DNA from: Helicobacter pylori PMSS1
Lineage (GTDB): Bacteria > Campylobacterota > Campylobacteria > Campylobacterales > Arcobacteraceae
Reading direction: 5' to 3'
DNA length: 42,700 nucleotides
Assembly (NCBI GenBank): GCA_945883785.1
Contig: CAMCYD010000006.1
Coordinates: 1-42,700, forward strand
This document shows positions 18,301-42,700 of this stretch, piece by piece. The notes beneath the pieces are model-generated. The model saw only the letters and a list, made by a program, of their open reading frames with translations, did not search any database and was not told the origin of the DNA. The translations under genes were made by a program, and so were the position numbers. How positions within the stretch are numbered: the stretch's first letter is position 1; each line of letters opens with the position of its first letter.

Positions 18301-21300
18301 TGTAAGTCTATCAGCAGGAACATACTATGTCAAAATCGTAGGAAATGCAAACACAGTTGATGGAAAATATGACTTAATTGCAAACTTTACAACAACTGAT
18401 GATAAGATAGATAAAGTGCAAAACTATAGTATTTCACCAGTTTCAGATATTACATTAGACGGTAGTGCAAATAGTACAAGTGGAAATTTACTAACTGATA
18501 ATGATGTAGATTTGTATAAAATCAAAGTAGCTTCAAGTGGTATTTTGGAACTTAATAGTACTGGATATACAGTTTCACTTATACAAGTAAATCCAAATAA
18601 CAATGATGATTTTACAACAGAAATAAATCAGTCTATCGGATATGTTGAAAGTGGGGTGTACTACATAAAAGTAAGTGGCACAGCTGGAGATTACACTATA
18701 GCTACAAAATTTACACAAGATATTCCTGACAGTAGCACTATAAATGTTTCCAATTATGATGCACTAAACCTTGGAACAACTGCACTAAAAGATTTTTATC
18801 TCAATCAAAATAGTGGTGAAATAGTGTATATAAACTCGGAAACAAATAAAACTTATTTGTATGATATAAATACTAAATCTAGCAAAGAAATCATTGTAAA
18901 TACACCTTATAACTACACTTACGAAAGAGCTTCAATCAATGATGGAAACCTAACTTTAGAGTATAGTTACGCAGCAGCAAAAGGAAGTATGATTGTAGAT
19001 GTTACAGATATAAATAATTCAATTATTTTGACAAATAATACAATCACAACATTGACACCAAGAACAAAAGAATCTGTCACTATAAATGGAACAACATACA
19101 AAATAGAAACAGCAAAAGGTGTTTTAGTTTATGATAGTAACAATAGATATATTAGGAAAATAACCAATATCCAAAAACCTGACTATCTTTACAGTTTTGG
19201 AGAAAAATTATTTATAGTCGGGGAGGGGAAAATTGCTATTGTTGATGTTTCAAATGATTATAGTGATTATAAATTAGAAGCAAATGCAATTTATGTGGGA
19301 ACAACAACGACTGGAACAGTTGTCACAAAAGATATAGATGTTTTTAGTATTATGATAAATGGAACGGGAGATTTTAATATTACAGGACTTTCAAATGATA
19401 TCAACTGTACATTAAGTGATGCAAATGGGAGTTTTTCTCAAAGTTGCAATTCACAGATTTCTAATCTTTCAAGTGGATTGTATTTTATCTCTTTGGTAAA
19501 TAATGATACCTCAAAAATCACACAATACAGTTTTACTCCAAATCTAACTTATGATGACTATCTTGATACTATGAATTTTGATACGAACACAACACATATA
19601 CAAGTGGTGAAAGATGTAAATGTGAGTGGAAATATTGTTGCCATATCTGATAAAGATTTCTTTAAAATAGAAATAAGTGAAACTTCACAATTAAGCATAG
19701 ACAATTTACCAGCAGGCTTTATTGGAAAAGTTTATTTTGAAGGTGGAGATGAAGTTACTAAAGTTGATGGGAAATACGATATTTTTAAAGCTGGAATGTA
19801 TTATATAAGTATTGAAAGTAATGGAACTGCAACGGGCGATTATTCATTTATCCCAAGACTTATTACTGGAAGTGCTTTAGCATTTACTGACAATGCTTCG
19901 GCTCAAAATAAGTATCTTTCATTTTTCCAATCAAATGGAGAAATTAAAGATATAAAAGTTTTTGGAAAATACATCTATATGACAGATACCGTGGATGGAT
20001 TTATAGTTTTAGATATCAGCGATCCTGAAAATCCACAAATTGCAACAAAATACCAAACATTAGGAACTGCTAGAAATATCCTTATAGACGGGAGTTTTGC
20101 ATATATTTCGCAAGGGGAAAGCGGAATAGAGATATTTGATATTAGTGATAAAAAAGCTATAAAATATATAGGTGGATATGATACAAATGGAACTGCGTAT
20201 GAAACTGATATTAATAGCACTTCTAAAATACTTTATGTTGCAGATGGGGAAAATGGAATTGTGAAACTTGATATTTCAAATCCATCGAAAATAGTAGCTT
20301 TGAAAACTATCACTGAAGCTGATAATAATATATCAAGTCTAAAACTTATAAATGGAAAACTTGTTGTTGCTGATTATAAAAATGGATTAAAAGTTTACAG
20401 TGATGATAGTGCAAATTCTAAAATTGAGGCACTTACAAAAACAGGCTCAAAATACACAAAAGTTTTAAACAATGGTGACTATATCTATGTATCAAACGAC
20501 AAAACTTTGAGCGTATATGATAAAAATTTAACAAAACAAGATTCTATAGCAATAAACTATGAAATACAAAACATAGCGTATGTTGATGATTTGGTCTATG
20601 TCACAACTGCAAGTAATGTGGCAGTTATTAATGTGAGAAATAAAACCCAGATTATTAATGAGAAAGAATTTAGTCAAATTAAAAATGGTGAAGTTGTAGC
20701 TGGAGAGATGCCTATTTTGGCAATAGATAATTCAAAAGATAATTTATTTTATGCTCAAAATCAAAAACTTCATATTCTAGAACTTTCACCAGATTATGCA
20801 GATAATTTTAAAGAGGCACAAAATATAGATGCTTTTCCAAATACTCAAAAAGGACAAATAGTAACCTCAAGACCAGATGATAAAGATATTTTTAAAATTA
20901 CTACAAAATATTCTGGATATCTCAATATAACTTCATCTTCAATGGGTGTTAATGGAAAAGTATCTTTTTATAATGCTACAGATAGTGGAATGGCAAATGC
21001 TATAGCTCAAGAAGATTATAAAAAAATAGATTGGACTACAATTAACCCAAAAGAAACTGATGCTAAACCCTTGACAAAAGATTTCTCTTTAACAAATGTT
21101 ACAGTCAATAAAGGAACTTTTTATGTCGTTGTAGAAGACGCACTTGCAACGAATAAAACGGGTGGAAATTATCAATTAAATATTGATTTTAATACTTCAT
21201 TGGACAAATATGCAGATGGAATATATAGTGATATTACAAATTCAATCGCTTCAAATGGTGGAGTTATTGAGGATTCATTATTTGGAGATGGCGGAGATAT

Positions 21301-22888
21301 TGATTTTATCGATATAAATGTTTCAAGTAGAGTTAATTTGACATTTGCTTTAAGTGGAGCTGTAAAACCAAGAATCACAATTTTTTATCCAGATGGAACA
21401 CAAGCAAATATCTCAACAGATGAAAATGCATCATCGTTTACAACTGAACTTAGTAGCGGAAATTATAAAATAAGATTTGATGGGTACAAAGCGACTGATA
21501 ATGGTAGTTATAAAATAACATTATCCACAGAACCAGTTGATGATATTATGGTAGAAAATGGTCTTAGTAAAGAAAATATAAATACCATAAATGATATGAA
21601 TCATTTAGGAAATAATATTTATGTTATCACAAAAAATACGATTTCAAGATACAACCATCTTTTAGAAAAGATTACAACTAAAGAAACCAATTTTATAATA
21701 AATAATGATGAAAATAATAGTAAAAATAACAGAATTTTTACTTATGTTGGAGATGAGGAAAATAGTATTGTAAATTATGTAGTGGCTACAAATAATGATG
21801 GGCTTCAACCAATTATTTTTGAAGTATCTATGAGCACATTGGATACTGAAATGGTGAGAACTCAGCAAATAGCGACTAATATTTTGCCATATCTTGAAGT
21901 TAAATATGTCTCAAAAAATAAGATTATATATATGTATGATGGAAGCAATATCCAAGTGAGAAATATCTACGACTCAAATAATGGAAATATGTACTCATAT
22001 TCATTTGGAAATTTACAAGATATAAAAGTAGTGAGTTATAGTGGATATGATATAGCATATATTGTGAGTAGCTCAGGGAAATTAGAAATTTTAAAAATTA
22101 TGACTGGGACAATAAGTTCAACAGTTTTACATACAAATTATTCATTTAGTAAAATTAATTCAATTCTTGTGGATACGAAAAGCAACAGACTTTTTATGGG
22201 AGTGGATAAAAAAATCATAGCATATAGCTTAGCTAATATATCTAATCCAACTGAACAATTTAGATTGTCATTTGAGGGAAAAGAATATGAAGGTACACCT
22301 AGCGATATGTATGCGAAAGACAATAGATTGTATGCGATTATCCCATCAGTTGGAATCGTTGTCGTTGATATCACAGACATAAGTGCTATCACATACAAAA
22401 CAATACTCAATCTTGGAAAAGATATCGATAATATTTTCAGTGCAGATGATAGAACCATCAACTATACAAATGTAGAAAATGGTACCAAAAGACTGAAAAT
22501 GTATTTTTTTGAGGATACATTTTCAGATGGGCAAAGTGATGGGGTTTATTCTGGGATGGATGAAACAGCACCTCCAAAAGAGGGATGTTTCATCGCGACA
22601 GCTGCTTTTGGAAGCTATTTTGAGCAGCATGTAAAAGTGTTAAGGGATTTTAGAGATCATGTGTTGCTTACAAATTTCATTGGGAGAGAATTGGTGAAAA
22701 TTTACTATGAGTACTCACCTTCAATTGCAGAATATATAGCCAATAGTGAATCTTTAAAACTAGTTGTAAGAGTAGTCTTAACGCCTGTTGTGTATCTTAT
22801 AAAATATCCACTATATGCAATGTTGCTGATTTTGTTGCTGTTGTTTGCTAGAAGAAAATTTAATAATAAAGGGGTAATTGTTAGATGA
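15365..22888 (+). CDS. Giant exported CFI-box-CTERM protein with Ig-like, PPC-like and LVIVD-propeller repeats
   Basis: The 2507-residue protein starts at ATGA overlapping the previous stop. The signal peptide is [20 protein letters not shown]. Residues about 24-670 are bacterial Ig-like modules, including two near-identical 122-residue units (about 119-240 and 241-362). From about 674 on, beta-sandwich modules like pre-peptidase C-terminal domains ('[20 protein letters not shown] ... [16 protein letters not shown]') alternate with LVIVD-type propeller stretches ('[20 protein letters not shown]'). A Pro-rich hinge leads to '[12 protein letters not shown]' with Cys 2408, then 'VKVLRDFRD' and '[13 protein letters not shown]', a hydrophobic helix near 2478-2500 and a basic end (ARRKF). 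This is the CFI-box C-terminal sorting-type domain, as I know it from annotation usage. A cell-surface adhesin or scaffold is likely. No protease or autotransporter barrel is visible. Confidence 0.8.
15722..16453 (+). repeat. Tandem 366-bp direct repeat inside the giant gene
   Basis: Two adjacent units of 366 bp (exactly 122 codons) begin near 15725 and 16091. They are alike at DNA level: GTTTCAAGTGTAGC, then TTTTTAAATGTAGGAGATGT in both, and GGAATAAGTATAGCTGCGAA in both. The in-frame unit and the high identity indicate a recent duplication and a site for length change by recombination. Edges are approximate. Confidence 0.75.
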
Positions 22889-25980: not shown

Positions 25981-28900
25981 ATGAAAAAAATAATAACTAT
26001 TTTATTTTTATTTTTGAGTGTTGGGTTGTTTGTAGGTTTGTTTGCAGAAGATAGTGCTACAACACCCACTTCCAAAAACGATGAAAATATTTCACAAGTT
26101 TCAAACGATGCAAATATTTCAGAAGCTAAAAGTACTCAACTAGTACAACCAAATATACTCAATACAAATTTAAAAGCTAACGAAAATGAGGTTTTGATAG
26201 ATGGAAATGCAACTGCAAATCAAGAAGTGGAAATCGTCATACTTTTAGGTAGTGAACGAATAGTAAAAAATACAACTGCAAATAACGAAGGAGTTTGGAA
26301 GCTTGTAGGAAACGATTTTGCAACACCTCTGAGAGATGGAATGTATGATATTTTTGTTTCTAGCAAAGACGAAAATGGTTCAAAAAGTGAAGTTGCAAGT
26401 TTGAAATCTATCCTAAAAGATACAAAAATCAATGGAAAAATAGCATTTGATGACGGAAGTGAGGCAAAAGATAGCTATATAAATCACACTGAATTAAGTA
26501 CATTTTTTATACTTGGAACGATAGATAGCGATAGTAAAATAGTTAATATCACGATAAAGGATGAGGCAACAAAAAAGGAGACAATCCTTGATTCTAAAAT
26601 TGTTTCTTTTGATAAAGCATTTAATTTTACAATTAAAAGCAAAGATATTCCATTGAAAGACTTTGCAGATGGTGAACTTGAATTGAAAGTTGATGTAGAA
26701 GATAATTCTGGAAACAAACTAACTCTTCAAGCTAAATGTATAAAAGATACAACAGCTCCAGTTCTACCACAAATCACAAAATCTATTAAAAATGAAAATA
26801 TGCTCAACGCTCAAGTGCAAAATATTTTAGTTTTTTTGGGAACGGGAGAAAAAGACAATAAAATTGAAGTTACTTTGTACAATAAAAAAAATCCAACACT
26901 CAAAACTACTGGTTTTGCTAAAGTAGATAATTCATCAAATTGGACTATGGTGGGGAGAGATTTTGAAGCAAAAAAATTAGAGTATGGAGATATTGTTGCT
27001 GAAATAGTTGCAATTGACCAAAGTGGCAATAAATCAGAAAAACTCATTTTAAACTACAAAAAAGAGCCAAATCCTATTTTTCCAAAACACCCAGTGATTA
27101 TTTTGCCTGAAGAATATATGACGGTAGATAGTATAAAAGATGTTGGTGATGTCATAAAATCAATTGTTGTAAATGATAATTATGTTATCGCAAGTACTTA
27201 TGGAATGATTTATTATTTTGATAAAGAAAAATGCAAAGTGCAAAAAAAGATTGAGATTAAACAACATTGGATAAATAGTCTAGCACTGTATGAAGACAAA
27301 TTGATAGTGGCTCTTGATAATGGGCAAATACAAATAAGAGATTTGAACTCAACTAAACTCATAACAACACTCGATGGTGAAAATCTTCCTGTATTGTTTT
27401 TGAAACTCAGTGGAAATAATCTAGTTTCATCTAGTTCAGATGGGACGATTACAGTTTGGGATTTGAAAGAAAAAAAACAAATCTATACATTGAGAAAACA
27501 TCAGTGGGATGTTTCCGCTATAGCGATTCAAGATGGAAAAATATACTCTGGAAGTGATGATTATAGTATCAAAATATGGGATATGAAATCTGGAAAATTT
27601 GAGAAAAATCTTAAATCCGCACACAAAGGGACGATTAATGCACTTGTTATTTATGAGAATAAGCTGATTTCTGCTTCAGATGATGGAACAATTCAAATAA
27701 GAGATATCAAAACAAATGCTCTTATTAAAGTGCTTGATGAACACAAAAAAGGGGTAACAGCACTTAGAATAAATCATGACAAATTAATTTCAGCTTCAAA
27801 TGATAGAACACTTATCGTATGGAATTTAAAAACTTACAAAAAAGAGAGACAACTAAGAGGACATAGCAAAAGTATTGTAAGTCTTGAAGTAAATAATGAA
27901 AATATTATCACGGGTTCTTTGGATTATACGATGAAAGTTTGGGGTGTCGATGAAACGATGGATAAATCTGGGGATGTTGATGAAGCGATATTAGCTAAAT
28001 ATGATTTGATTAAAAGTTTGAATGTGAGTGATGATATTGTGACTTCATTGGCACAAACACAAAATGAAATAATTTTTTCAACTTTTGGAAATATTTATTT
28101 TTACAATAATGTAACTTACCTTCCAACGAGAAAATATACAACTCTTGATGAGGTAAGAACCATAGCAAAAAAAGACAAAAAAGAGGAATCTTCTAAAAAA
28201 GTGGAAGTATCTAGTGGAGAAGCTGTTATTTTTGATGCAGTTTTGGACCAAAAAAGAAAGATTATGGATGAGGAAGCTTCAAAAAATCCTCAATGGGTCA
28301 ATAGCATCAACCTACAAGGAAATAGACTTTTTGCAGCACTTGGATATAAAAATCTTAAAATTTGGGACTTAGAAGCAAATAAAGCGATAAAAGAAGTAGA
28401 TGGGCACGAAAGCTCAGTACTCAATATCATACGAAGTGATGACCGTATCATCAGTAGTTCAGCAGATGGTGCTATAAAAATTTGGGGTCAAGAAAAAATG
28501 GATTTGATGATGTCAATAGATGCACACCAATGGGATATAAAAACAATGGTAGCAGAAGATGGCACACTTTATACTGGAAGTGATGATTATAGCATCAAGA
28601 TATGGGATATGGAAACTGGGGATTTGCTAGAAAATATAAAATCAGCACATAATGATAAAATCACTGCATTAGGAATATACAAAAATCTTCTTATCTCTGG
28701 AAGTATTGACGGAAAGCTGATATTTAAAGATAAAGAAACATTGACAACACTAAAAGAGATAGATGTGAAAAGCCCAATAAATAAATTTGTAATCGATGGA
28801 AAAATGATTATCAGTGGAAATGAAGATGGTTCAATCACTGTTGTTGATATAGAAAAACTCAAAAAAGTCAAAACAATAGAAAAGGCTCATATAGGTGGGA

Positions 28901-28983
28901 TAAGTGCTATTATGACCACAGATGACTATATCATCTCAGGTGGAAAAGATAAAAAAATCAATATTTGGAAATACTATGAATAG
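25981..28983 (+). CDS. Exported Ig-like/WD40 double-propeller protein
   Basis: The 1000-residue protein has a signal peptide (MKKIITILFLFLSVGLFVGLFA) and a Ser/Asn/Thr-rich linker. Three Ig-like modules lie at about 52-140, 145-255 and 260-360 ('VLIDGNATANQEVEIVILLG ... GVWKLVGNDFATPL'). Two WD40-type arrays follow, at about 380-660 and 730-1000, with repeats such as 'GSDDYSIKIWDM' and 'SASDDGTIQIRDI'. A Lys/Glu-rich spacer near 730 separates them. The propellers should serve as protein-binding platforms in the periplasm or at the surface. There is no lipobox or CFI-box end. The two arrays are internal paralogs offset by 342 codons. The stop overlaps the next giant's start by 8 bp. Confidence 0.78.
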   Translation: MKKIITILFLFLSVGLFVGLFAEDSATTPTSKNDENISQVSNDANISEAKSTQLVQPNILNTNLKANENEVLIDGNATANQEVEIVILLGSERIVKNTTANNEGVWKLVGNDFATPLRDGMYDIFVSSKDENGSKSEVASLKSILKDTKINGKIAFDDGSEAKDSYINHTELSTFFILGTIDSDSKIVNITIKDEATKKETILDSKIVSFDKAFNFTIKSKDIPLKDFADGELELKVDVEDNSGNKLTLQAKCIKDTTAPVLPQITKSIKNENMLNAQVQNILVFLGTGEKDNKIEVTLYNKKNPTLKTTGFAKVDNSSNWTMVGRDFEAKKLEYGDIVAEIVAIDQSGNKSEKLILNYKKEPNPIFPKHPVIILPEEYMTVDSIKDVGDVIKSIVVNDNYVIASTYGMIYYFDKEKCKVQKKIEIKQHWINSLALYEDKLIVALDNGQIQIRDLNSTKLITTLDGENLPVLFLKLSGNNLVSSSSDGTITVWDLKEKKQIYTLRKHQWDVSAIAIQDGKIYSGSDDYSIKIWDMKSGKFEKNLKSAHKGTINALVIYENKLISASDDGTIQIRDIKTNALIKVLDEHKKGVTALRINHDKLISASNDRTLIVWNLKTYKKERQLRGHSKSIVSLEVNNENIITGSLDYTMKVWGVDETMDKSGDVDEAILAKYDLIKSLNVSDDIVTSLAQTQNEIIFSTFGNIYFYNNVTYLPTRKYTTLDEVRTIAKKDKKEESSKKVEVSSGEAVIFDAVLDQKRKIMDEEASKNPQWVNSINLQGNRLFAALGYKNLKIWDLEANKAIKEVDGHESSVLNIIRSDDRIISSSADGAIKIWGQEKMDLMMSIDAHQWDIKTMVAEDGTLYTGSDDYSIKIWDMETGDLLENIKSAHNDKITALGIYKNLLISGSIDGKLIFKDKETLTTLKEIDVKSPINKFVIDGKMIISGNEDGSITVVDIEKLKKVKTIEKAHIGGISAIMTTDDYIISGGKDKKINIWKYYE

Positions 28984-34900: not shown

Positions 34901-35434
34901 TATACAGATGAAAAAGGGATACTCGTTCCAGATAAAGATTTTGAAAATATAGGAGTAAGTGTCGATAATGTATATAGTGTTGACAATAGTACTTTTAACT
35001 ACACAGCTACAGATGGAAATATTTCAAAACTGAATGTATTTATTTTGAAAGAGAAACTCTCAGATGGGATATCAGATTCTTCATATTCTCAAGGAAGTGA
35101 AACAAAACCTCCAAAAGAAGGGTGTTTTATAGCAACAGCTGCATTTGGAAGTTATTTTGAAAAACATGTAAAAGTGCTTCGAGATTTTAGAGATAGATAC
35201 CTCAAAACAAATCCAATAGGACTTGCTTTTGTTGATTTTTATTATACCTATTCACCTGCAATTGCCGATATGATAGCGGATAATGAAATAGCAAAAGTTG
35301 TGATTAGATCGATATTGACACCGATTGTGTATCTTATAGAGTATCCATTGTATGGATTCTTACTGATTGGATTGTTATTTGGAGTGCGAAGAGAATATAG
35401 AAAATCAAGAGCGGAAGGGACGGTAGCACAATGA
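28976..35434 (+). CDS. Second giant exported CFI-box-CTERM protein with LVIVD-propeller and PPC-like repeats
   Basis: The protein has about 2152 residues. The ATG at 28976 is chosen over an in-frame ATG at 28922 because it gives an immediate signal peptide (MNRKNILQKFLILVALLFSSALYG) and a tight overlap. Residues about 25-340 are LVIVD-type propeller ('NNTYGANGVNGVVIFSDDGG'). Pairs of PPC-like sandwiches lie near 344-423 and 455-528, and near 872-935 and 970-1055. Propeller repeats ('LYLADGWGGLKVIDITTP', 'DGNYLYSLDRDGNKLNIYDISD') fill the rest. The end is '[12 protein letters not shown]' (Cys 2050), '[13 protein letters not shown]', 'FYYTYSPAIADMIA', a hydrophobic segment and a basic tail. It is a paralog of the giant at 15365 without the N-terminal Ig block, and the last about 100 residues are the most alike. 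Confidence 0.8.
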   Translation: MNRKNILQKFLILVALLFSSALYGDEGTVTFTNKSSYTSSMTPQAIKKIGNNTYGANGVNGVVIFSDDGGMLSLVKSQSISGDTIKDIAVEGENIYAVSTTKLYVLDSNLTIKGTILLSGEVNSVEVKSNIVFIANGTNGIVLVDATTKTAPSNVGKLSTTDAKKMIIKNNTLYLADGWGGLKVIDITTPTFPRVVTTDDTETYTDIAFDTTKLFALSGSKIRPFDITNEILPIKKTLFDTTKVITSITSIFSYDSNVYIGTTSGISSYSTVDMNNLVSSGTYSISNVNDLFIVGGYGYIATSNSINLALFDSDFADDLTKAHIATSIGGLPQKIEGTLPDDENDVDYIKLILPNFGIFSLSVDTKIGNLKVTLFDENNETIAETNNTTSAITDFQKSLTDGTYFLKIESTTNSSGIYNLSMSVASDDFTDSKDGALSVFDKDTIAGNISTTADKDIFKIFIADAGKLTLNSSEAWLKASILKNNKDGVINGTGSIEEEGIFFDIPYGGTYFIEISGDITGDYSFTNNFSTEGTNPYEDVDKPQLTKLQEQIFTGNKVITNSDFVFVSDSGKVIYTKDQKTLGSVDTLPNTKANIKDMVIAGEYLYYSLEGTFGIGIAKVGSNGALTVQKESFSVDNGVSISKLVLDGNFLYAFSGTKLYKINIATKTAPVLDSANIYNIGTEIYDIDIKYSAWNRVGAPTKTRNGYIYIATQNGLKVFGIDDKALLTIYEGIDTNSTAKLKIYNNRMYTMNNSTKSLNIYDISVPVYASKLGSVRVDENTSSIEVTKNRLFLAPKMQVIDISDEKNPNPINSLPSLTGQKDIALFGGVAYSIGSNLTSYEIQNDYNNSALSVGTTIKGNISKIVKEYGTGSDTDKFIITATNSGTITLDFNGTVGLDFNTTLTSKTSSDISVGTYEVEVFSTNGTDGNYTLNTTFAKDDFPDEIANATYLDFDSNGIVVKSGNLSSTGDDKDYFKIDLTRRGTLTLKLTGNVNAKVELIDKNKKTIYSKEYNTINGTTEYKVETTLNPDTYYLLVTKEDNNTTKVEGNYSLEVIFTPNDDFVLNEKIPYDQLIYGNSFIYTMLGNKLNVYSHLLQKVSQKELTYDTTKMCSKPIVVGNYMYYNQKSTDTQTINPCDQTKYTLSNGGYVKYNLNVGEDDRNEISSEYYRVYQEAFMTMEYEKDPYMGITALANIDTNSLVMIDSSKIATYTIPTDKTQQMTPLDSEKLIASNKVIVDGNYLYSLDRDGNKLNIYDISDKAHPILKKDFDTYTYSRDMILKGNYLYLASNSGIIHVLDISNKSAPTKVFSGLKQDQWNYYYDTVYNMVLNSDDNKTLYLQHNTGFYIVDISDPTAPVYKLKYYSQSYSSDGINRSLKYLNKKVYNLYAYSLDVVDVNNSTNPALYAFKSNGISASDIVVVSEDTIYIKNSSNIVKTSLAKIKSNDSNVSNISSIYDTIKYQNGVIYQASSSKIDEYDENLTFIKNDINITQSPADFTLNDGYIYVANSDLGYSIYRDGNSTRLNVVGYNTTTNNFQDMVLKNNIAYVANSNSEAGIKIYDISDKANIVYKSLVKVTDNSNYGQSISKVAIDGNNIYPYNTYFLAKYSISNPTNPTKVLGVSNLKSSSSLYYSDISIGKMIIDGNYGYIANQYYNNYGLTIINLTDFSIVKNFKISTIGTPKDLVKKGNTVYIGGSSGFAAVDVSSLSTPSLKKTIDKYQYVNTLALDGDFLYVGTSGNLIKYDISDPQVPVIKEIAAKENSNYPSDTSSFSVDKMHIYNGKIYGNVTKEDKLKIIDLNSSHQLPYYTYLSKLNILYGDDKYLYEYGTLTSDSFGNSVNKSILSRILNTNDTNNYELTESKGQYEVSGITIVRSNGEDLYIALGKTLQVVSFDSFNKATVKSEITFDNNITHMEVLGTKKTLYIHIEGTKYIKVYDIKDNSNLAKIQEYDTNEILNSIFFRSNKVYISSPNYGVKIAYTDEKGILVPDKDFENIGVSVDNVYSVDNSTFNYTATDGNISKLNVFILKEKLSDGISDSSYSQGSETKPPKEGCFIATAAFGSYFEKHVKVLRDFRDRYLKTNPIGLAFVDFYYTYSPAIADMIADNEIAKVVIRSILTPIVYLIEYPLYGFLLIGLLFGVRREYRKSRAEGTVAQ

Positions 35435-38316
35435 AAAAAATAATACATATAATTTTTATCACTCTCTTGTATGTAGTTTTGATGACTGGATGCGGTGGTG
35501 GAGGCTCTACTTATAAAGAAGATGTTGCTCCAGCTCAGGATGCAAAAAATATCGGGACAGGGTATTTTATCGATTCACCAGTTTCTGGAATATTTTATAG
35601 AAGTGGAAAAATCAGTGGAGTAACTGATGTGAATGGAACTTTCAAATATGATGCAACACCAGATGTCGCCTACAATACAGATATTTCATTTAGTGTAGGA
35701 AATATCAAACTAGGAACGCTTCAAGTAACTGATATAAATGAAACTGACCATAAATTGTATCCAAATGAGCTTCTTGGGTTTGACAGAAAAGATACAAACA
35801 ATACCCAAACAATTATGATGCTACGACTTTTACAATCTTTAGATGATGATGGAGATACATCACATGGTATTCATATCTTATCTACACTTCAAAATAAACT
35901 CGAAATAAGCCCAATTAACTTTGAAAATAATGTAACAGAAGCGAATTTACATAAGACTATGTCAGATGTGAAAATGAAGCTAGTGAATGAATTTGTAGCC
36001 AGAAATCATTTTGAGAAAGGCTTAAATGATACTTTTGGATGGAATGTTGATACTATCGGACCTTTGGTTCCCGTTGTTTTAACTACAAATAATCTTACCA
36101 ATGAAGATACTTTTGCATTGGCATTGAGTGGGGAGGCAAATAGCACAATCTATATCGATAATGTCGATAGTGGAATCGTTCTAGATTCTTCAGGGATAGC
36201 AAATCTTTCGCTCAATACTTCAGGGAGTGATGGCAATAAAACATTTCTTATTTATTTAAAAGATACAAAAGACAACCTAGGTGAACACTTAACATATTTA
36301 GTGAAAAAAGATAGCACACCACCGCAAATAACAGTGCCATCTTCAATAGATATGTTTGAAAAAATTTCAAAAGTTCCATTAACTATCAGTGCAACAGATG
36401 TGAGTCCTCTCACCTATTCTCTAAGCGGAACAGATGCAAGCAGTTTTACTCTTGGAAGCGATAGAGTGCTTAACTTTAAAACAGCTCCTAGTTATGCAAC
36501 AAAATTATCTTACAGTATCAATATTGATATTTTTGATGGGATAAATAGTGTAAGTGTTCCATTAACTATCAAGATTTTGCAAACAGACTATGATTTTAGT
36601 GGTGATACTACTTGGGAACAAGATAGTGTAGCAATGAAAAGCGGGAAGATTTCAGGCAATCAAATCACATGTATAGAAAAAAAAGTAACTGGAAATATTT
36701 CATTTGACTGGAAAGTTTCTTCAGAATATTATGCTGATTATCTAAAATTTTATATCGATGGTTCAAATTATAATTCAATATCAGGAGAACAAGATTGGTC
36801 GAGTCAAAGTTATTATCTAGTAGGTAATCATACAGCAAAATGGTGTTATACAAAAGATGGAGCTTCTTCAAGTGGTGAAGATGCTGGATGGATTAGAAAT
36901 GTAGTTGATGAAAATACTACGACACATATCCCATATTTTACCAATAGTAATTATGCACATGTAAATGAAAATCAAAAAAATGCGATAACTTTAACTGCAA
37001 CAGATGCAGATAATAACCCATTGACTTATTCTATTTCAGGGGTAGATGCAAGTTATTTTGATTTGAATAGTTCAAGCAGAGTAGTGACATTTAAAGTTGC
37101 ACCTGATTATGAAGATGAAAATCGAACCTCTCATCGATATCAATTTACAGCTACTGTAAGCGACGGGATCTATAGCAAGGCACAATATATTTTTATTTAT
37201 ATCAATAATACTGGAGAAGATACAATTCCGAATAGTTTTAGTTTCACATCGCAATCGAATGTTGCACTTTCAAGTGCAATTGAATCAAACAGCATAACTA
37301 TTTCAGGTATTGATGCATCTGCTCTAATATCTATTTCAAATGGAGAATATAGTCTTAATAGTGGTGCTTGGACAAATGCAGATGGATCGGTTTCAAATGG
37401 AACTATTGTAAAAGTAAGACATACAAGCTCAGGAACATCAGAATCAAATGTGACTACAACATTGACAATTGGTGGAGTAAATGGGATGTTTACTTCATCA
37501 ACACTCAAAGAGGTAGGTTTATATATTCGTTCTGCAGTGTATGACAATAACCGTACAGTCACACCAAATGATGATGAGCTTTATATTTATTTTAGTAAAG
37601 AGATAAATCCATCTTCAATCAGTAGCGATATGAGCCAAAACTATGATATTAATGGAACAGGAGCCATAGGTAGTGCGTCAATTGGAGAGTATAATAGCAC
37701 AATTTTTTATAGGCATAAAGTATCTTTAAACTCAAATGGAACATCCTCTGTTGCCTTAGACAATAATGGTAGTACAAAAATAGTGTTGCATCAAAGTGTG
37801 ATTAGGGATATAAATGGGAGCTACCCATTGGATTATAATCAAACGATTGTAGATACATTGACCCCAGTGCTAAAAACTGGGCAAACTACTAGTTATGCAA
37901 CAAATGATGACGGTACTTATAAAAAAGGGGTAGCAAGAAGCTATACAAGAGATGCTGGCAAAGCGGTAGTCACAGACAACGTCACAGGCTTACAGTGGCA
38001 AGATGACAACACCACTACACCATCAACTCTGACTTGGGATTATGCGATAACTTATTGTACAAACTTAGAGTTTGGTGGATTTAGCGACTGGCGACTCCCA
38101 TCAAAAGAAGAGCTAGAAACTATCGTTGATTATGGAAAATATAGCCCTAGTATTGACCAAACTTTTACAAATGTTACCTCTAGCTATTATTGGAGTTCTA
38201 CTACCGATGCGAGCTACACTAGCTATGCTTGGCTTGTCTCTTTCAACTATGGTTATACGCGCAACGACGTTAAGACGGATAGCTATTATGTTCGGTGTGT
38301 TAGAGACGGACAGTAA
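35431..38316 (+). CDS. DUF1566 lipoprotein with cadherin-like modules and a DGR-type variable C-terminus
   Basis: The 961-residue lipoprotein starts at ATGA overlapping the giant gene. Its lipobox is 'LMTGCG' with Cys 21. Residues about 38-190 are a 'GYFIDSPVSGIFYRSG...SGVTDVNGTFKYD' carboxypeptidase-regulatory-like region. Cadherin/Ig-like modules follow ('PLTYSLSGTDASSFTLG', 'AITLTATDADNNPLTYSISG'). Residues about 840-961 are a DUF1566 (Lcl C-terminal, C-type-lectin-like) domain: 'GLQWQDD', 'FGGFSDWRLPSKEELETIVD', 'SSYYWSST', 'YYVRCVRDGQ'. The last 46 codons (from residue 916) differ from the paralog at 39070 almost only at first and second codon positions, the pattern of a retroelement-mutated variable region. 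It is the last operon gene, and a displayed, diversified ligand binder is the natural reading. Confidence 0.85.
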   Translation: MKKIIHIIFITLLYVVLMTGCGGGGSTYKEDVAPAQDAKNIGTGYFIDSPVSGIFYRSGKISGVTDVNGTFKYDATPDVAYNTDISFSVGNIKLGTLQVTDINETDHKLYPNELLGFDRKDTNNTQTIMMLRLLQSLDDDGDTSHGIHILSTLQNKLEISPINFENNVTEANLHKTMSDVKMKLVNEFVARNHFEKGLNDTFGWNVDTIGPLVPVVLTTNNLTNEDTFALALSGEANSTIYIDNVDSGIVLDSSGIANLSLNTSGSDGNKTFLIYLKDTKDNLGEHLTYLVKKDSTPPQITVPSSIDMFEKISKVPLTISATDVSPLTYSLSGTDASSFTLGSDRVLNFKTAPSYATKLSYSINIDIFDGINSVSVPLTIKILQTDYDFSGDTTWEQDSVAMKSGKISGNQITCIEKKVTGNISFDWKVSSEYYADYLKFYIDGSNYNSISGEQDWSSQSYYLVGNHTAKWCYTKDGASSSGEDAGWIRNVVDENTTTHIPYFTNSNYAHVNENQKNAITLTATDADNNPLTYSISGVDASYFDLNSSSRVVTFKVAPDYEDENRTSHRYQFTATVSDGIYSKAQYIFIYINNTGEDTIPNSFSFTSQSNVALSSAIESNSITISGIDASALISISNGEYSLNSGAWTNADGSVSNGTIVKVRHTSSGTSESNVTTTLTIGGVNGMFTSSTLKEVGLYIRSAVYDNNRTVTPNDDELYIYFSKEINPSSISSDMSQNYDINGTGAIGSASIGEYNSTIFYRHKVSLNSNGTSSVALDNNGSTKIVLHQSVIRDINGSYPLDYNQTIVDTLTPVLKTGQTTSYATNDDGTYKKGVARSYTRDAGKAVVTDNVTGLQWQDDNTTTPSTLTWDYAITYCTNLEFGGFSDWRLPSKEELETIVDYGKYSPSIDQTFTNVTSSYYWSSTTDASYTSYAWLVSFNYGYTRNDVKTDSYYVRCVRDGQ

Positions 38317-38329
38317 CTTTGATACTTTG
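38169..38329 (+). other. Candidate DGR variable region 1 (VR1)
   Basis: This 161-bp segment aligns without gaps to 39411-39571 (offset 1242) with 19 differences: 11 at codon position 1, 7 at position 2 and 1 at position 3. Thirteen of fourteen changed codons change the amino acid. Ten of the 19 sites have A in one copy, and the other nine have A in neither. All are compatible with an adenine in a common template. The last 43 bp, from TATGTTCGGTGTG to the shared TTTGATACTTTG, are identical and would hold the IMH-like end. Confidence 0.8.
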
Positions 38330-38481
38330 TCATTGCGAGTGAAACGAAGCAATCCATCTTGTCATTGCGAGGAATGAAATGACGAAGTAATCCATAAAGC
38401 CGACTATGGATTGCTTCACTTCGTTCGCAATGACAACCCGTCACTGCGAGGAACGAAGCAGTCCATTTCGTTCACAATGAC
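38329..38481. repeat. Cluster of three REP-type repeats
   Basis: A half unit at 38329-38356 starts GTCATTGCGAGTGAAACGAA. A complete hairpin spans 38361-38434, from GTCATTGCGAGG to CGCAATGAC. A shorter hairpin lies at 38440-38481. All belong to the family at 5080. The first begins exactly at the end of variable region 1. Confidence 0.85.
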
Positions 38482-38499
38482 TAAAAAAAGGAGAACCAA

Positions 38500-38787
38500 A
38501 TGAAACAAGGGTATGTTTATATCATGACCAATCAAAAAAATGGAACACTTTATATCGGAGTAACCAATGATTTGATTCGTAGAGTATATGAACATAAAGG
38601 ATGTTTACAGGAGTGTTTTACTAAAAAATATGGTTTGAAAACACTTGTATATTATGAAATATTTGATGATATTGAAGAAGCTATCAAAAGAGAAAAACAA
38701 CTCAAAGCTGGAAATAGAGCTAAGAAAATATCACTTATTGAAAGTATAAATTCAAATTGGGAAGATTTGTATGGTAGTATTTTGTAA
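38500..38787 (+). CDS. GIY-YIG family endonuclease (UvrC-N-like, REP-associated)
   Basis: This 95-residue single-domain GIY-YIG nuclease contains 'GYVYIMTNQKNGTLYIGVTNDLIRRVYEH', holding the two motif halves (YVY and YIG) and the catalytic Arg. It also has 'EAIKREKQLKAGNRAKKISLIESINSNWEDLY', with the Glu of the active site. The length is complete, and AAAGGAG precedes the ATG at 38500. REP units lie directly on both sides (ending at 38481 and starting at 38792). I have the impression that small nucleases of this type often sit inside such repeats, which suggests a mobile unit. It is unlikely to be part of the upstream operon's function. Confidence 0.88.
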   Translation: MKQGYVYIMTNQKNGTLYIGVTNDLIRRVYEHKGCLQECFTKKYGLKTLVYYEIFDDIEEAIKREKQLKAGNRAKKISLIESINSNWEDLYGSIL

Positions 38788-38791
38788 AAAA

Positions 38792-39005
38792 GTCACTGCG
38801 AGGTATGTGAAAGCCGTTAAAAAAGTAAACTGCTTTACTTTTTTAGGCTTGGAACCAAAAGCGATGTGCTTTAGTACCGCTGGAGGTAGTCCAAGAAGCG
38901 GACAGTGGATTGCTTCACGATGTTCGCAATGACAGAATCGTCACTGCGAGGAACGAAGCAGTCCATAAAGCGGACTATGGATTGCTTCACGGCGTTCGCA
39001 ATGAC
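38792..39005. repeat. Two further REP units, one carrying an insert
   Basis: Unit one spans 38792-38933 (GTCACTGCGAGG to CGCAATGAC), with about 70 bp of extra sequence in its loop. Unit two spans 38940-39005 and is a compact hairpin. Both share the repeat family at 5080 and 38361. The stretch 38788-39069 holds no gene I can support. Confidence 0.8.
38818..38845. terminator. AT-rich perfect hairpin, possible bidirectional terminator
   Basis: AAAAAAGTAAA (38819-38829) pairs with TTTACTTTTTT (38834-38844) around CTGC, plus one more T-A pair. It has A and T tracts on the two sides, 30 bp after the GIY-YIG stop. The stem is GC-poor, so termination strength is doubtful. Confidence 0.35.
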
Positions 39006-39069
39006 AAGGCTATAAGCCATTGCAAACATGCAAATAGTTACAATTTAATAAAAAAGGTAGGAACAATAG

Positions 39070-39558
39070 ATGAAAAACAACCACGAAGTTGAAGTTTTAT
39101 CAACTAAAGTAAAAAAAATGAAAAACAGTGCACTTATCCGACTCGTCTTAGTTGGTAGCTTGACACTTTCACTGCAAGCTGAATTTTTAAGAGACGCCAC
39201 AAAAGAAATAGTACTCGATACCAAAACAAACTTAGTATGGCAAGATAATAGTGAAGCAAAAACAATAACAAAAACTTGGAGTGAAGCGATAAGTTATTGT
39301 GAAAATCTCACATTTGCTTCATATGATGACTGGCGACTCCCAAACATAAATGAACTAAAAACTATAGTTGATAGTTCAAGATATAGTCCAGCTATCAAAT
39401 CACAGTTTGTAAATGTTGCCTCTAGCTATTATTGGAGTTCTACTACCTATGCGAGCTACACTAGCTATGCTTGGTTTGTCTATTTCAACGTTGGCGGTAC
39501 GGACGACTACGATAAGGCGCTTAGCGGTTATGTTCGGTGTGTTAGAGACGGACAGTAA
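39070..39558 (+). CDS. Small secreted DUF1566 protein with DGR-type variable C-terminus
   Basis: The 162-residue protein uses ATG 39070, with AGGTAGG 8 nt upstream. An in-frame ATG at 39118 would give a standard-length signal peptide and cannot be excluded. The hydrophobic core is 'LIRLVLVGSLTLSLQA', and there is no lipobox. The mature part is a bare DUF1566 domain: 'NLVWQDNSE', 'TWSEAISYCENL', 'YDDWRLPNINELKTIVD', 'SSYYWSST', 'YVRCVRDGQ'. The domain is only moderately similar to that of the 961-residue lipoprotein up to residue 113. From there the DNA becomes nearly identical except for adenine-type changes. It forms its own transcription unit behind the repeat cluster. It is probably a free or loosely bound diversified binder, or a spare variable cassette. 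Confidence 0.82.
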   Translation: MKNNHEVEVLSTKVKKMKNSALIRLVLVGSLTLSLQAEFLRDATKEIVLDTKTNLVWQDNSEAKTITKTWSEAISYCENLTFASYDDWRLPNINELKTIVDSSRYSPAIKSQFVNVASSYYWSSTTYASYTSYAWFVYFNVGGTDDYDKALSGYVRCVRDGQ

Positions 39559-39571
39559 CTTTGATACTTTG
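39411..39571 (+). other. Candidate DGR variable region 2 (VR2)
   Basis: This is the gapless partner of the segment at 38169-38329. Variable codons cluster between residues 117 and 155 of the small DUF1566 protein. Taking A at every differing site, the template would read NNGNTNNNDKTNSN across the core, the Asn-rich (AAT/AAC) coding typical of DGR template repeats. The fixed 3' end covers 'YVRCVRDGQ', the stop and 13 further bases. Confidence 0.8.
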
Positions 39572-39580
39572 GTTTCGGAA

Positions 39581-39598
39581 CCCCAAACTTGTTTGGGG
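39581..39598. other. GC-rich hairpin just downstream of VR2
   Basis: CCCCAAA (39581-39587) pairs with TTTGGGG (39592-39598) around CTTG. It begins 10 bp after the end of the shared variable-region block. DGR target sites such as that of Bordetella phage BPP-1 have a short GC-rich hairpin just after the IMH, which this resembles. It could also be a weak terminator, but no T-tract follows. Confidence 0.45.
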
Positions 39599-39622
39599 CA
39601 TTGTAAAAAACAGGAGTCATAA

Positions 39623-39805
39623 TTGCATACAAAACTTCCTCACTTAAATCTTCACGACCACTATCAATTCATCACTTTTCGCACACTTGATAGTATCGAT
39701 GATTATGTAAATACAATCCAAAATAATACAAAATTTGATACTAAAACAAAACAATTTTTATCCCCTCTATCAAATAATCCTCATCCACTTCTAGTTTTAA
39801 AGTGA
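39623..39805 (+). pseudogene. 5' remnant of a RAYT-like (Y1/REP-associated) transposase
   Basis: The reading frame begins at TTG 39623 after CAGGAG and encodes only 60 residues. 'KLPHLNLHDHYQFITFRTLDSIDDYV' resembles the N-terminus of REP-associated tyrosine transposases. These start with a short 'H..YQFITFRT' strand and carry their HUH and Tyr motifs further on, and those are missing here. The last about 18 residues are read from DNA that in the opposite strand is tex coding sequence, so the gene was cut there, near 39745-39760. A full-length copy elsewhere could move the REP repeats found nearby. Function is lost in this copy. Confidence 0.6.
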
Positions 39806-40291
39806 TTTGTTTCTCATTTACCGCTCGAAATATCGCCAAAAGTCGATGCGATTTGAGGTAACTCGCTTTTTGATGTATCTCTTCAAGGGTGTATTTCACC
39901 CCACTTATCATATTTGCTAAAGGTTCAAGCCCATTTACAAGGGCAATATCCGCTCTTGTATTTTTGGACTCTTTGTAAGGTTCGTAAATGTCTTCCAAAG
40001 CTGTCAATGTAGTAGCTTTGTTTAAAAGCTCTTGCAGAGTTGTGGTTAAAGACACCTCTCTTTTAAAATATATTCAATCTCCTCTTTTCGTTTGAGGGGT
40101 TTGAGACTATATTCATAAATCTCTTGAAATTTCAAAAGTGCTTCATCGGTAGCATTTCCAGTATTGTCTTTTCGATATCTCGCAATAAACGGGATAGTAC
40201 ACCCCTCTTCAAGAAGAGCGATGATGTTTGTGATATATTTTTCATTTAGCGATGTTTTCTCTTTTAGGAGAGTGAGTAAGTTAGTGTTCAT
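39741..40291 (-). pseudogene. tex: Broken tex (transcription accessory protein) remnant
   Basis: Two overlapping frames make up this remnant. The first, 40291-40046, encodes 81 residues with the Tex N-terminal signature 'GCTIPFIARYRKDNTGNATDEALLKFQEIYEY'. It ends after 'IEYILKERCL'. The second, 40055-39741 in another frame, continues with 'LQELLNKATTLTALEDIYEPYKESKNTRADIALVNGLEPLAN', which is contiguous Tex sequence, so a frameshift lies near 40046-40055. It then jumps to 'SHRLLAIFRAVNEKQITLKLEVDED', which in full Tex comes many residues later, so an internal segment is deleted. The remaining roughly 500 residues, including the S1 domain, are missing. The gene cannot make Tex. Confidence 0.85.
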
Positions 40292-40379
40292 TTTTGCCTT
40301 GGTTGTTTAGATTATTTTAGTGATATGTATTGCTTATCTTAGAAAAGATTCAGTAAATTTAGAAAATTAAAATGATATT

Positions 40380-41039
40380 TTATTGAGAAAGTTGATTTAA
40401 AAATTCTTTTAAATCATCTAAAATTTCATGGTCAAAGTTCCAAATCTTTTTCTCTTTTAATGCATATTCAAAAATACAATATGTATCTTTTTTCCCTTTA
40501 TGTTTACTTGCAGTACAAGTATCATACATAATGTAATTATTTATCCAAAATTTATTAAAGATTTTCTTGGTTACGGCTTCACCTTTTTGTTCTATACATT
40601 CTTTCCATTCTGACAAACAATCTGCATAATTTGATTTTTCGGTTTTTATACTTTTTAAAATATCTTCAAGTTCACCTTTACCATTTAAGTTCATTATATA
40701 AATTTGAAACTCAATATTCTTTTCTTCATCAAAAACTAAATTGATTTTTTCTTTAATTTGTCTTGTTCTTACTTCAACACCAACTTCATCAGCATCAAAA
40801 ATAATTCCTATTTTTTGAATGGATTGTTTTTGTGTTTGATTAGATACGAACTTTAATTTTTGCTCTAAATTATCTATACCACCGATACACTCAAAATCAT
40901 TTACCAAGCATATAGGTTTATCAATCTCTATATGTAGATTCATATGATTTAATAATGCTTGAATAAAAAACTTATCGTTATTACTTTCAACAATTAAAAG
41001 ATTATTCACCTCGAAGCCTTTCATTATTAGATAATCCAT
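40380..41039 (-). CDS. TOPRIM-domain protein (DUF3226/RloB-like), partner of an AAA ATPase
   Basis: The 219-residue protein has 'NNLLIVESNNDKFFIQALLNHM' (TOPRIM Glu) near the start and 'QKIGIIFDADEVGVEV' (DxD) in the middle, the two halves of a TOPRIM metal site. The end is 'IMYDTCTASKHKGKKDTYCIFEYALKEKKIWNF', typical of small stand-alone TOPRIM proteins such as DUF3226. An internal ATG at 41021 could be the true start, since the first codons overlap the upstream ATPase gene by 38 bp. Such a protein next to an SMC/ABC-like ATPase resembles a split OLD nuclease. Nuclease activity and a defence role are inferred. Confidence 0.75.
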   Translation of the reverse strand: MDYLIMKGFEVNNLLIVESNNDKFFIQALLNHMNLHIEIDKPICLVNDFECIGGIDNLEQKLKFVSNQTQKQSIQKIGIIFDADEVGVEVRTRQIKEKINLVFDEEKNIEFQIYIMNLNGKGELEDILKSIKTEKSNYADCLSEWKECIEQKGEAVTKKIFNKFWINNYIMYDTCTASKHKGKKDTYCIFEYALKEKKIWNFDHEILDDLKEFLNQLSQ

Positions 41040-41964
41040 ATTCTAATTGTTCACTATCAATTTGTGATATAAAGATTTTATTTGTTTGTACATTTCTAGC
41101 CATCTCAAAATAATAAGTTTCTTTATCTTGTAATTTTAGTTGAACACGATTAAAAGACTCTATGCACTCTTTAGAATGGGTTGTCGCAAAAACTTGAACT
41201 TTTTGTTCTTTAGAAACAGAAAGGATAATCTCCCATAATTCATCAAGTTGAGTGTAATGGATGCCATTGTCAATCTCATCAATAAAAAGATAGCCATTTT
41301 CACACTGAAAAAGTGAACTTACAATAGAAACTAAATGTTTCGCACCATCACCAAGCTCAGTAAGTTCTAGCCATTCACCATTTACTCTACATTGGGGTAC
41401 ATCACCAGCTATAAATTTTTCAATTCTATTATCAAATTGATGTAAAATATTATTAAGAAATTGTTCTTTGTCTTGTTTCTGAACTAATAAATAGGCATCT
41501 TTAATTTGACTATTGCAAAATCCAAAATTATCAATAAATATAATATTTTGTATTTTTCCAGATTCAAATGAGAAATCATTTTTATTCACATCAATAGTTT
41601 GATTATTAAATTCAAAATGGTATTTTTTAACTCCCTCATTTTCATCAATTCTAAAATGGATTTGATTCATATTTGAAGTGACAAAAATATTATTACTTTG
41701 TTCCAGAAATTTCTTAGTATTGTTTATTTGTTCATTTTCTAAAATATTGATATTTTCTCTCATAAATTTAATACCTTGTAGCGAATGACTCAATCCTTTA
41801 ATATTTTGCCCATAAACATTCACATAACATGCTTCCATAAAAGCAGTTTTTCCAACATTATTTTTCCCACCAATAAGATTGACTCTTCCAAATCCATCAG
41901 CTTGAAAATCTTTAAAACATTTAAAATCTTTAATTGCTATAGTGTTTATAAAATGATTTTCCAT
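41002..41964 (-). CDS. AAA_15/AAA_21-type ATPase (OLD/SMC-like)
   Basis: The 320-residue ATPase starts at ATG 41964, which has AAAAAAAGGG at good spacing. A TTG at 41982 would only add six codons that contain this site. 'INTIAIKDFKCFKDFQADGFGRVNLIGGKNNVGKTAF' gives the RecF-like entry and Walker A (GKNNVGKT, about 33-40). 'ELTELGDGAKHLVSIVSSLF' is the signature region, 'GYLFIDEIDNGIHY' is Walker B, and 'VFATTHSKECIESF' is the H-motif. The coiled-coil arm is short. It overlaps the TOPRIM gene downstream, so the two are made together. Such pairs occur in anti-phage systems (PARIS-, Gabija- or OLD-like). The subtype cannot be set here. Confidence 0.85.
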   Translation of the reverse strand: MENHFINTIAIKDFKCFKDFQADGFGRVNLIGGKNNVGKTAFMEACYVNVYGQNIKGLSHSLQGIKFMRENINILENEQINNTKKFLEQSNNIFVTSNMNQIHFRIDENEGVKKYHFEFNNQTIDVNKNDFSFESGKIQNIIFIDNFGFCNSQIKDAYLLVQKQDKEQFLNNILHQFDNRIEKFIAGDVPQCRVNGEWLELTELGDGAKHLVSIVSSLFQCENGYLFIDEIDNGIHYTQLDELWEIILSVSKEQKVQVFATTHSKECIESFNRVQLKLQDKETYYFEMARNVQTNKIFISQIDSEQLEYGLSNNERLRGE

Positions 41965-42032
41965 CGTGACCCTTTTTTTCAATATGGTACATTGTACTAA
42001 ATTTTTGATTGTATCTTATTGATGTTGAAAAT

Positions 42033-42575
42033 TTATTGTATCAACTTCTTCTCCCTCATACATTTGAGTATTTCATAACATTTACTCACATCATAAGTGG
42101 CACTGTGGTAGGCATTTTGGTCGAAATTTATCCCGTAAAAGTTACAGGTTTCATCGAGTTTTGGATTTTTGATAGCACCGTTTTTATTGAGGGCTTTGAC
42201 TATATGTTTATTCTCTTTCATCGTGCAAAAGTGATTTTCAAACTTCACGATTTTCTCACAATGGCGAAGTTCAAAGCTGATATTGTGAGCGACTAAAGTG
42301 TTTGCTCCCTTGCAAAACTGTGCAAACTCTTCATCTTCTTTGAAGTAGGCTGGATATTTTATTTCATTTTTATTTCGATGTTCCAAGATAAGTTCTGGGG
42401 TGAGTTTATGGACATTAAAAGAGTGGAAGTTTACAGGGTATCGTGAAAGATAGTATCTATGAAACATCTCTTTGACTTTGAGTTCTCCATCAAGCTCTAT
42501 TCTTACAGCTGCTACCTCTATCACATCATATTGGTTGTGGGTGTTTGTTTCAACGGACATTTTCCAACCAAACAT
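42033..42575 (-). CDS. DnaQ-like DEDDh 3'-5' exonuclease with altered first motif
   Basis: The 180-residue protein starts at ATG 42575 with AAGGGG upstream. Two TTG codons precede it. 'YDVIEVAAVRIELDGEL', 'HKLTPELI', 'NTLVAHNISFELRHCEKI' and 'NAYHSATYDVSKCYEIL' match motifs around Exo I, the core, Exo II and Exo III. The first catalytic Asp-x-Glu is 'SVET' instead of 'DxET', and the Exo II acidic residue is Glu (HNISFEL). The N-terminus is also short before that motif. Either the true N-terminus is damaged by a frameshift near 42560, or the protein has lost part of its metal site. The final His-Ser-Ala-Thr-Tyr-Asp is intact. Upstream of 42575 nothing further can be called to the window edge. 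Confidence 0.65.
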   Translation of the reverse strand: MFGWKMSVETNTHNQYDVIEVAAVRIELDGELKVKEMFHRYYLSRYPVNFHSFNVHKLTPELILEHRNKNEIKYPAYFKEDEEFAQFCKGANTLVAHNISFELRHCEKIVKFENHFCTMKENKHIVKALNKNGAIKNPKLDETCNFYGINFDQNAYHSATYDVSKCYEILKCMREKKLIQ

Positions 42576-42700
42576 CAACAAACCCCTTATTTAAGGGATC
42601 TATTTAAAAAAAATTCTATTTTTCGTAACTACAGCTTATAAATTACCTTAAATTCTTGATGGGAGTTTGAAATTCATAATTTTAAATAACTTTAACAATC

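Follow-up and report, generated by a model that had tools for sequence, protein, structure and literature searches.

An overlapping ATPase-TOPRIM gene pair with an exchangeable ATPase segment and an exchangeable effector as a candidate combinatorial defence cassette of Campylobacterota

The window, a stretch of 42,700 nucleotides, carries toward its end two overlapping minus-strand genes for an ATPase and a DUF3226 TOPRIM protein. That the middle segment of the ATPase and the TOPRIM effector are exchanged independently of each other is well supported by sequence comparison with related pairs. We give about even credence to a wider reading in which the two genes, about 1.6 kb in all, form a combinatorial immune cassette with two independently replaceable slots. 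One slot would be a trigger sensor, placed between the Walker motifs A and B, and the other the TOPRIM together with its matching ATPase tail. The module would occupy fixed housekeeping junctions, above all hisH-hisA, where homologous recombination across the seams and the flanking core genes would keep making new sensor-effector pairings across Campylobacterota families. How small ATPase-nuclease innate defence modules change their recognition is, to our knowledge, little understood. The PDC-M38 candidate to which the pair belongs is already known; what looks new is the exchange in two slots and the hot spot in operons, and no literature on middle/effector exchange or on hisH-hisA insertion was found in a search of titles and abstract starts (without preprints and most subscription journals).

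The gene pair and its family

The ATPase gene (41002-41964, minus strand) encodes 320 amino acids from an ATG, and an in-frame TTG at 41982 would extend the product to 326 amino acids. Its 3' end overlaps by 38 nt (41002-41039, minus strand) the 5' end of the gene for a TOPRIM protein of 219 amino acids (40380-41039, minus strand). A sequence-only reading of the window had described this overlapping pair, and Pfam confirms its DUF3226 assignment with 79.7 bits against a cut-off of 27. An overlap of 1-38 nt is present in all 31 complete pairs of the first comparison set. The assignment of the ATPase as a PDC-M38A/AbiLi-type protein, and putative sensor or regulator, draws on the open reading frame, Pfam, PADLOC and a structural model, and that of the TOPRIM protein as the putative nuclease and effector on Pfam, PADLOC and a model. 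Between 40200 and 42200 there are 19 promoter-like sites where 13.9 are expected (sd 3.7), and a terminator search there gave nothing. A scan of 36000-42700 likewise gave no Rfam family.

Pfam matches the ATPase to AAA_15 (61.1 bits, cut-off 32.1), with SMC_N below threshold (25.7 versus 40). The ATP-binding motifs are intact and comprise GGKNNVGKT (residues 32-40), GDG (205-207), LFIDE (226-230) and His-263; the first and third we take to be Walker A and Walker B. The TOPRIM residues Glu-18, Asp-22, Asp-82 and Asp-84 are unchanged in 33 of 33 aligned partners. Comparison of the copies divides the ATPase into four parts, all on the minus strand. The N-terminal part (residues 1-46, 41827-41964) with Walker A and the C-terminal part (residues 221-270, 41155-41304) with Walker B and His-263 are constant, as judged by identity in 33 copies, and the former is identical in protein sequence in the relative L006. 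The exchangeable middle segment between them (residues 47-220, 41305-41826), proposed here as the trigger sensor, is delimited by identity, DNA break points and AU tests, and the tail (residues 271-320, 41002-41154) is distinguished by a Spearman correlation with the TOPRIM partner.

AlphaFold2 models of both proteins are confident (pLDDT 90.1 and pTM 0.90 for the ATPase; pLDDT 85.6 and pTM 0.83 for the TOPRIM protein), and the middle segment of the window ATPase is modelled as folded, mostly with high confidence. Relatives of solved structure were sought by sequence, which gave weak matches at most. The ATPase model superposes on Rad50/SMC heads (Z 17.5, rmsd 3.4, 251 residues aligned), on retron/Septu PtuA ATPases (Z of about 16, rmsd 3.6-4.4, 251-261 aligned) and on AriA (8v46_B; Z 15.8, rmsd 3.9, 245 aligned). 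The best match of the TOPRIM model is PH0156 (Z 12.3, rmsd 3.5, 182 aligned), followed at a lower score by the C-terminal domains of OLD proteins (Z 9.2-9.3, rmsd 4.5-4.8, about 160 aligned). Foldseek returned no match to the TOPRIM model at E<=0.001, and AriB is absent among the matches listed for it by VIA-align, an absence that excludes nothing.

Profile searches, which the sequence-only reading had proposed, identify the pair as a member of PDC-M38, itself a catalogued computational candidate. The ATPase matches PADLOC PDC-M38A with an E value of 3.3e-44, nearly tied with AbiLi (8.6e-44) and far stronger than AriA (1.3e-17), with GajA at 3.1e-10; the TOPRIM protein matches PDC-M38B (5.2e-10). 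Membership is assigned from the E values of the M38A and M38B matches in overlapping genes, independently of PADLOC's own system thresholds. A literature search found no paper naming PDC-M38 and none on DUF3226.

The sequence-only reading had likened the pair to split-OLD, PARIS and Gabija systems. The likeness to the first two holds for layout, the pairing of an ABC-type ATPase with a separate TOPRIM protein being PARIS/OLD-like, and the folds align; sequence, on the other hand, places the pair in neither PARIS nor Gabija. PARIS (AriA/AriB, OLD class 4) has the split arrangement in common and the window ATPase model aligns to AriA, although its sequence match to AriA is comparatively weak; the family name is rejected since the TOPRIM protein has no match to the AriB sequence profile at E<=1. 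Gabija and class 2 OLD systems also combine an ATPase with a TOPRIM, whereas the window has two separate genes flanked by DnaQ-like and tex genes with no UvrD-like GajB helicase adjacent. AbiL of Lactococcus (AbiLi/AbiLii) is a two-gene abortive-infection system according to PMC10440598. The window ATPase is of AbiLi type, but the effector, a DUF3226 protein, has neither an AbiLii match at E<=1 nor an RloB match in Pfam, and so AbiL is not adopted as the family name. One relative (L007) gives a weak AbiLii match (0.0056).

Exchange of the middle segment and of the effector

The nearest relative, L006 in genome G004, has the same neighbours, with the cassette between a DnaQ-like gene and tex. 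Scored in 50-nt steps across 42550-39751, the DNA of the window and L006 is 82-100% identical apart from a stretch of about 41800-41301 with 42-68% identity. This stretch has sharp borders, at about codons 47 and 221 of the ATPase gene, and so falls between the two Walker motifs. The proteins are correspondingly 100% identical over residues 1-46, 36% over residues 47-200 and 98% over the TOPRIM protein. The middle segment of the window is 73% identical to that of L002 and 71% to that of L009, both of which are located elsewhere and in other organisms. Residues that the window shares only with L006 or only with L002 number 10 and 0 in the N-terminal part, 15 and 76 in the middle segment, 4 and 0 in the constant C-terminal part, 33 and 1 in the tail and 129 and 1 in the TOPRIM protein. 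AU tests reject a clade of the window with L006 for the middle segment (p 2e-5) and a grouping of the window with L002 for the tail and TOPRIM (p 1.5e-5). With flanks, seams and effector at 82-100% DNA identity and one ATPase segment differing, the two loci offer a natural comparison for locating the putative phage sensor. The sequence-only reading, confined to the window, could not have revealed that middle segment and effector are exchanged independently, the most informative property of the pair. In HsdS of Type I restriction systems a target-recognition domain is replaced between conserved seams; here the swapped segment belongs to an ATPase, and a second slot, separate from it, serves for exchange of the effector.

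The same mosaic is seen across related pairs. The first set kept 31 of 33 ATPases and a later one 62 of 67, those dropped being under 290-300 amino acids or lacking a full TOPRIM; one of the five left out of the 67 is a duplicate-region ATPase without a TOPRIM (L186). The larger set took at most 30 matches from each of families f7 and f4, and further copies lie outside the 62. In 33 ATPases residues 1-45 have a mean pairwise identity of 59-93%, residues 46-225 of 13-39%, residues 226-270 of 64-86% and the remainder of 24-45%. The identity of the tail follows that of the TOPRIM protein (Spearman 0.72 in 31 pairs; 0.71, p 0.002, in 62 pairs). The middle segment is nearly uncorrelated with the TOPRIM protein (rho 0.09, p 0.02, 62 pairs), and this residual correlation counts against full independence. 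Within this set of 62, TOPRIM proteins are at least 70% identical in 37 comparisons, of which 30 have middle segments below 50%, and conversely the TOPRIM is below 45% in nine of the 15 comparisons with middle segments at least 65% identical. Clustering at 45% sorts the middle segments into 26 types and the TOPRIM proteins into 7, which occur in 36 combinations; at 55% there are 42 and 17 types in 53 combinations.

Individual chimeras illustrate exchange of either part. L012 has its middle segment in common with L011 (92 residues versus 4) and its TOPRIM in common with L010 (78 versus 7); the AU test rejects L011 with L012 for the tail and TOPRIM (p 2.7e-7), and for the middle segment L010 with L012 is not rejected (p 0.058). 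The pair L110/L199 has middle segments 99% identical and TOPRIM proteins 33% identical. Its DNA identity is 88-100% through the ATPase gene to approximately nucleotide 840, drops to 35-68% over the tail and most of the TOPRIM gene and returns to about 90% around the hisA start, which makes these two loci a natural comparison for the independence of the putative sensor and killer. The copy L165 in genome G586, a single contig of about 2.6 Mb, is also chimeric, its middle segment sharing 106 residues with L013 versus 2 with L056b and its TOPRIM 68 residues with L056b versus 9 with L013. In genus g27, where the copies are more distant and many genomes are in one contig, no middle swap was seen, and the four comparisons with TOPRIM identity of at least 70% have middle segments 78-92% identical; exchange of the middle segment is therefore documented only for the close subfamily. 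One g27 comparison (L133/L159, genomes of 1 and 2 contigs) combines 72% identity in the middle segment with 37% in the TOPRIM protein and resembles a replacement of the effector.

Genomic sites and distribution

The cassettes usually sit tightly inside runs of housekeeping genes. The commonest site is between hisH and hisA, with hisA directly downstream in 30 of 62 pairs and the TOPRIM stop codon overlapping the hisA start by 4 nt in several copies; hisH and hisA were named by Pfam in L005 (GATase, His_biosynth) and by similarity at the other loci. In family f4, hisA was present in 35 of 41 genomes searched and 30 loci were examined. Ten contain a cassette, three retain a remnant of the TOPRIM 3' end (one judged by eye), 16 are plain junctions of 8-162 nt and one has no hisH in reach. 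L055 and L056 each hold two tandem cassettes, with middle segments 41-46% identical in DNA, L207 likewise holds two, in L109 hisA is flanked by a cassette on either side and L116 has a decayed cassette between hisH and hisA. Other sites include an mtnA-like/aldolase junction, an FGGY-kinase/radical-SAM junction and a methyltransferase gene. In 11 hisA-linked copies the DNA of codons 8-45 is more alike than that of hisA in 42 of 45 comparisons (median 85% versus 77%), with the middle segment at 45%. The raised identity fits a recombination seam, and strong selection on Walker A would raise it too. Most copies lie in housekeeping gene runs and not in defence islands, which counts against a defence reading; the hisH-hisA junction is in turn a place to seek such modules beyond defence islands.

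In the window the cassette is flanked upstream by a DnaQ-like exonuclease gene (RNase_T; 42033-42581, minus strand) with an altered 5' end and downstream by remnants of tex (Tex_N and central region; 39741-40291, minus strand), which is broken in the window and intact in L006. Compared with L006 the window tex lacks about 170 nt internally and the match stops at 39755; an intact tex was found neither in the genome of the window nor in six of seven other genomes of the genus. An empty copy of this site was sought, and genome G001 has the DnaQ-like gene without a cassette but lacks tex as well, so that it does not show the exact insertion point. None of ten other window genes scanned with Pfam looked like defence, and the annotated parts of the window show no defence island. 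The mobile-element debris that the sequence-only reading had placed beside the pair is partly borne out, downstream, with short dispersed repeats, a GIY-YIG gene and the broken tex; the upstream neighbour is the DnaQ-like exonuclease gene.

Several minor features of the window were observed in addition. The first codons of the DnaQ-like gene differ between the two loci, encoding LDFETN in L006 and MSVETN in the window, and the sequence upstream is unrelated (42553-42700); the divergence, 147 nt before the contig end, could be a truncation, a rearrangement or an assembly edge. The repeats at 38327-39007 are dispersed units of 28-55 nt with inverted 31-nt arms, adjoining the GIY-YIG gene (38500-38787). 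A 130-nt stretch (38200-38329 and 39442-39571) is shared at 86% identity by the ends of the genes 35431-38316 and 39070-39558, the latter encoding an Lcl_C domain, and reads as a partial gene duplication. Very large proteins are encoded at 15365-22888 (2507 amino acids, Ig-like and LVIVD repeats) and 25981-28983 (1000 amino acids, many WD40-type repeats).

A core gene at a fixed locus in all relatives, the finding that the sequence-only reading had set against its own proposal, is contradicted by sporadic presence. The cassette occurs in 3 of 8 genomes of the genus, in the close form in the genome of the window and in G004, and G001 has longer relatives of 722-725 amino acids. The ATPase is present in 33 of 397 genomes of the phylum (E<=1e-20). 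At E<=1e-40, family f7 has it in 22 of 228 genomes and family f4 in 41 of 175. The pair is also present in a Neisseriaceae genome (L008), and both genes are on six of the ten viral-contig loci found. More distant relatives of the ATPase occur on plasmids (149 records, including 133 from Klebsiella), and in the one plasmid record examined (L018, 4167 bp, ColRNAI) a DUF3226 partner lies beside the ATPase relative.

The two long ATPases of G001 (L073:134-2302 and L074:655-2832) have an N-terminal extension of about 390 amino acids without a Pfam match, and each adjoins a DUF3226 protein (319 and 187 amino acids), a different architecture with the same effector family. The record L019 (CAKLQH020000003.1) is labelled as an Acinetobacter phage; its stretch with glyQ, glyS, transporter and regulator genes looks like a bacterial chromosome, and the ATPase-DUF3226 pair follows directly after glyS. 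In L009 (8954-9211) the TOPRIM protein is cut to 85 amino acids by an internal loss that includes the DxD region, and the ATPase is intact.

Proposed mechanism and alternative explanations

The reading we favour, with a little more than even confidence, is that the two genes form an AbiL/PDC-M38/PARIS-type cassette that protects against phage by abortive infection and resembles a toxin-antitoxin system. Its sensor and its TOPRIM toxin would both be exchangeable, and the ATPase seams around the sensor constant. This reading builds on the pair, its motifs, its mosaic structure, its sporadic distribution and its insertion into operons, all read from sequence, and on folds taken from models, with the pairs on viral contigs also in its favour; the defence function and the steps that follow are drawn by analogy. 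In PARIS an ATPase hexamer sequesters a tRNase that is released by a phage protein and cleaves tRNA (PMC11455837), and PMC12409363 likewise describes sequestration of the TOPRIM tRNase by the ATPase until a phage protein binds, and cleavage of tRNA. AAA/TOPRIM_OLD pairs that were validated by toxicity neutralisation (PMC10440598) are a second published analogue. In the window pair the ABC-type ATPase may similarly oligomerise and keep the TOPRIM nuclease inactive, with the C-terminal tail as part of the interface. The co-variation of tail and TOPRIM supports such an interface, and the physical linkage of the tail with the TOPRIM gene would give the same result. The middle segment is assigned the role of recognising a phage product because of its position, variability and exchange. 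Recognition would release or activate the TOPRIM protein, which would cut an essential cellular nucleic acid, with tRNA the likeliest, and so stop the infection; tRNA as the substrate is a guess taken from PARIS. Recombination at the conserved Walker A and Walker B seams would replace the middle segment and provide new specificities, and the tail and TOPRIM would be replaced separately by recombination.

An addiction cassette of toxin-antitoxin type, in which the ATPase neutralises the TOPRIM toxin without dedicated phage sensing and weak constraint lets the middle segment vary, is an unlikely alternative. The operon-embedded sites and decayed copies fit a selfish element, the L009 locus retains its ATPase beside a TOPRIM of 85 amino acids, and AAA/TOPRIM_OLD pairs are described as acting as toxin-antitoxin systems, validated by toxicity neutralisation, in PMC10440598. 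Drift, however, cannot make the middle segment of the window converge on L002 (76 residues shared only with it versus 15 with L006), nor can it yield the 99% identical middle segments with 33% identical TOPRIM proteins of L110/L199, and the middle segment of the window is modelled as a folded and mostly high-confidence structure.

We also doubt, to a similar degree, that the two proteins form a complex of OLD/Gabija type that cuts phage DNA directly and has no tRNA target, the middle segment being an insert for DNA recognition or for regulation. Such a complex would agree with the best structural matches of the ATPase model, which are Rad50/SMC heads, retron ATPases and PtuA, and with the match of the TOPRIM model to OLD nucleases, of which TsOLD cuts DNA (PMC10568477). 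Fold matches nevertheless reveal no substrate, and PARIS, a split ATPase/TOPRIM system with a known target, cuts tRNA (PMC11455837; PMC12409363).

That the mosaic is an artefact of metagenome contigs joined through conserved stretches is improbable to a greater degree. Most of the genomes are fragmented and such stretches could confuse assemblers; genome G214 has two contigs each with hisA or part of hisA. Single chimeras, including window/L006, could be assembly errors and need read support because most genomes are fragmented. Against an artefact as the general explanation, the one-contig genome G586 is also chimeric, the matching parts differ by 9-34% in most chimeras rather than by about 0% (L110/L199, at 1%, being the exception) and the near-independence of middle segment and TOPRIM extends across 62 pairs from many assemblies.

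It is very improbable that the pair serves housekeeping regulation or repair in place of defence and is expressed together with operons such as his. Although the tight spacing before hisA in 30 of 62 pairs would suit this and PMC12796447 reports an archaeal OLD-family ATPase in the cell cycle and not in defence, the pair is sporadic (33/397, 22/228 and 41/175 genomes), 16 of 30 hisA loci have a plain hisH-hisA junction without it, and it occurs at many unrelated sites, in tandem copies with different middle segments and on viral contigs.

A further observation concerns three related viral contigs from one metagenome, which encode an ATPase of 143 amino acids without the entire middle segment (L127:6001-6432, L128:6001-6432 and L129:524-955). 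No TOPRIM partner was found for it on these contigs. In L129 the Walker B motif reads DGID in place of DEID, and in L127 and L129, the two contigs examined, the gene lies amid phage tail-like genes. This short viral ATPase could serve as a decoy for TOPRIM toxins, binding or neutralising them.
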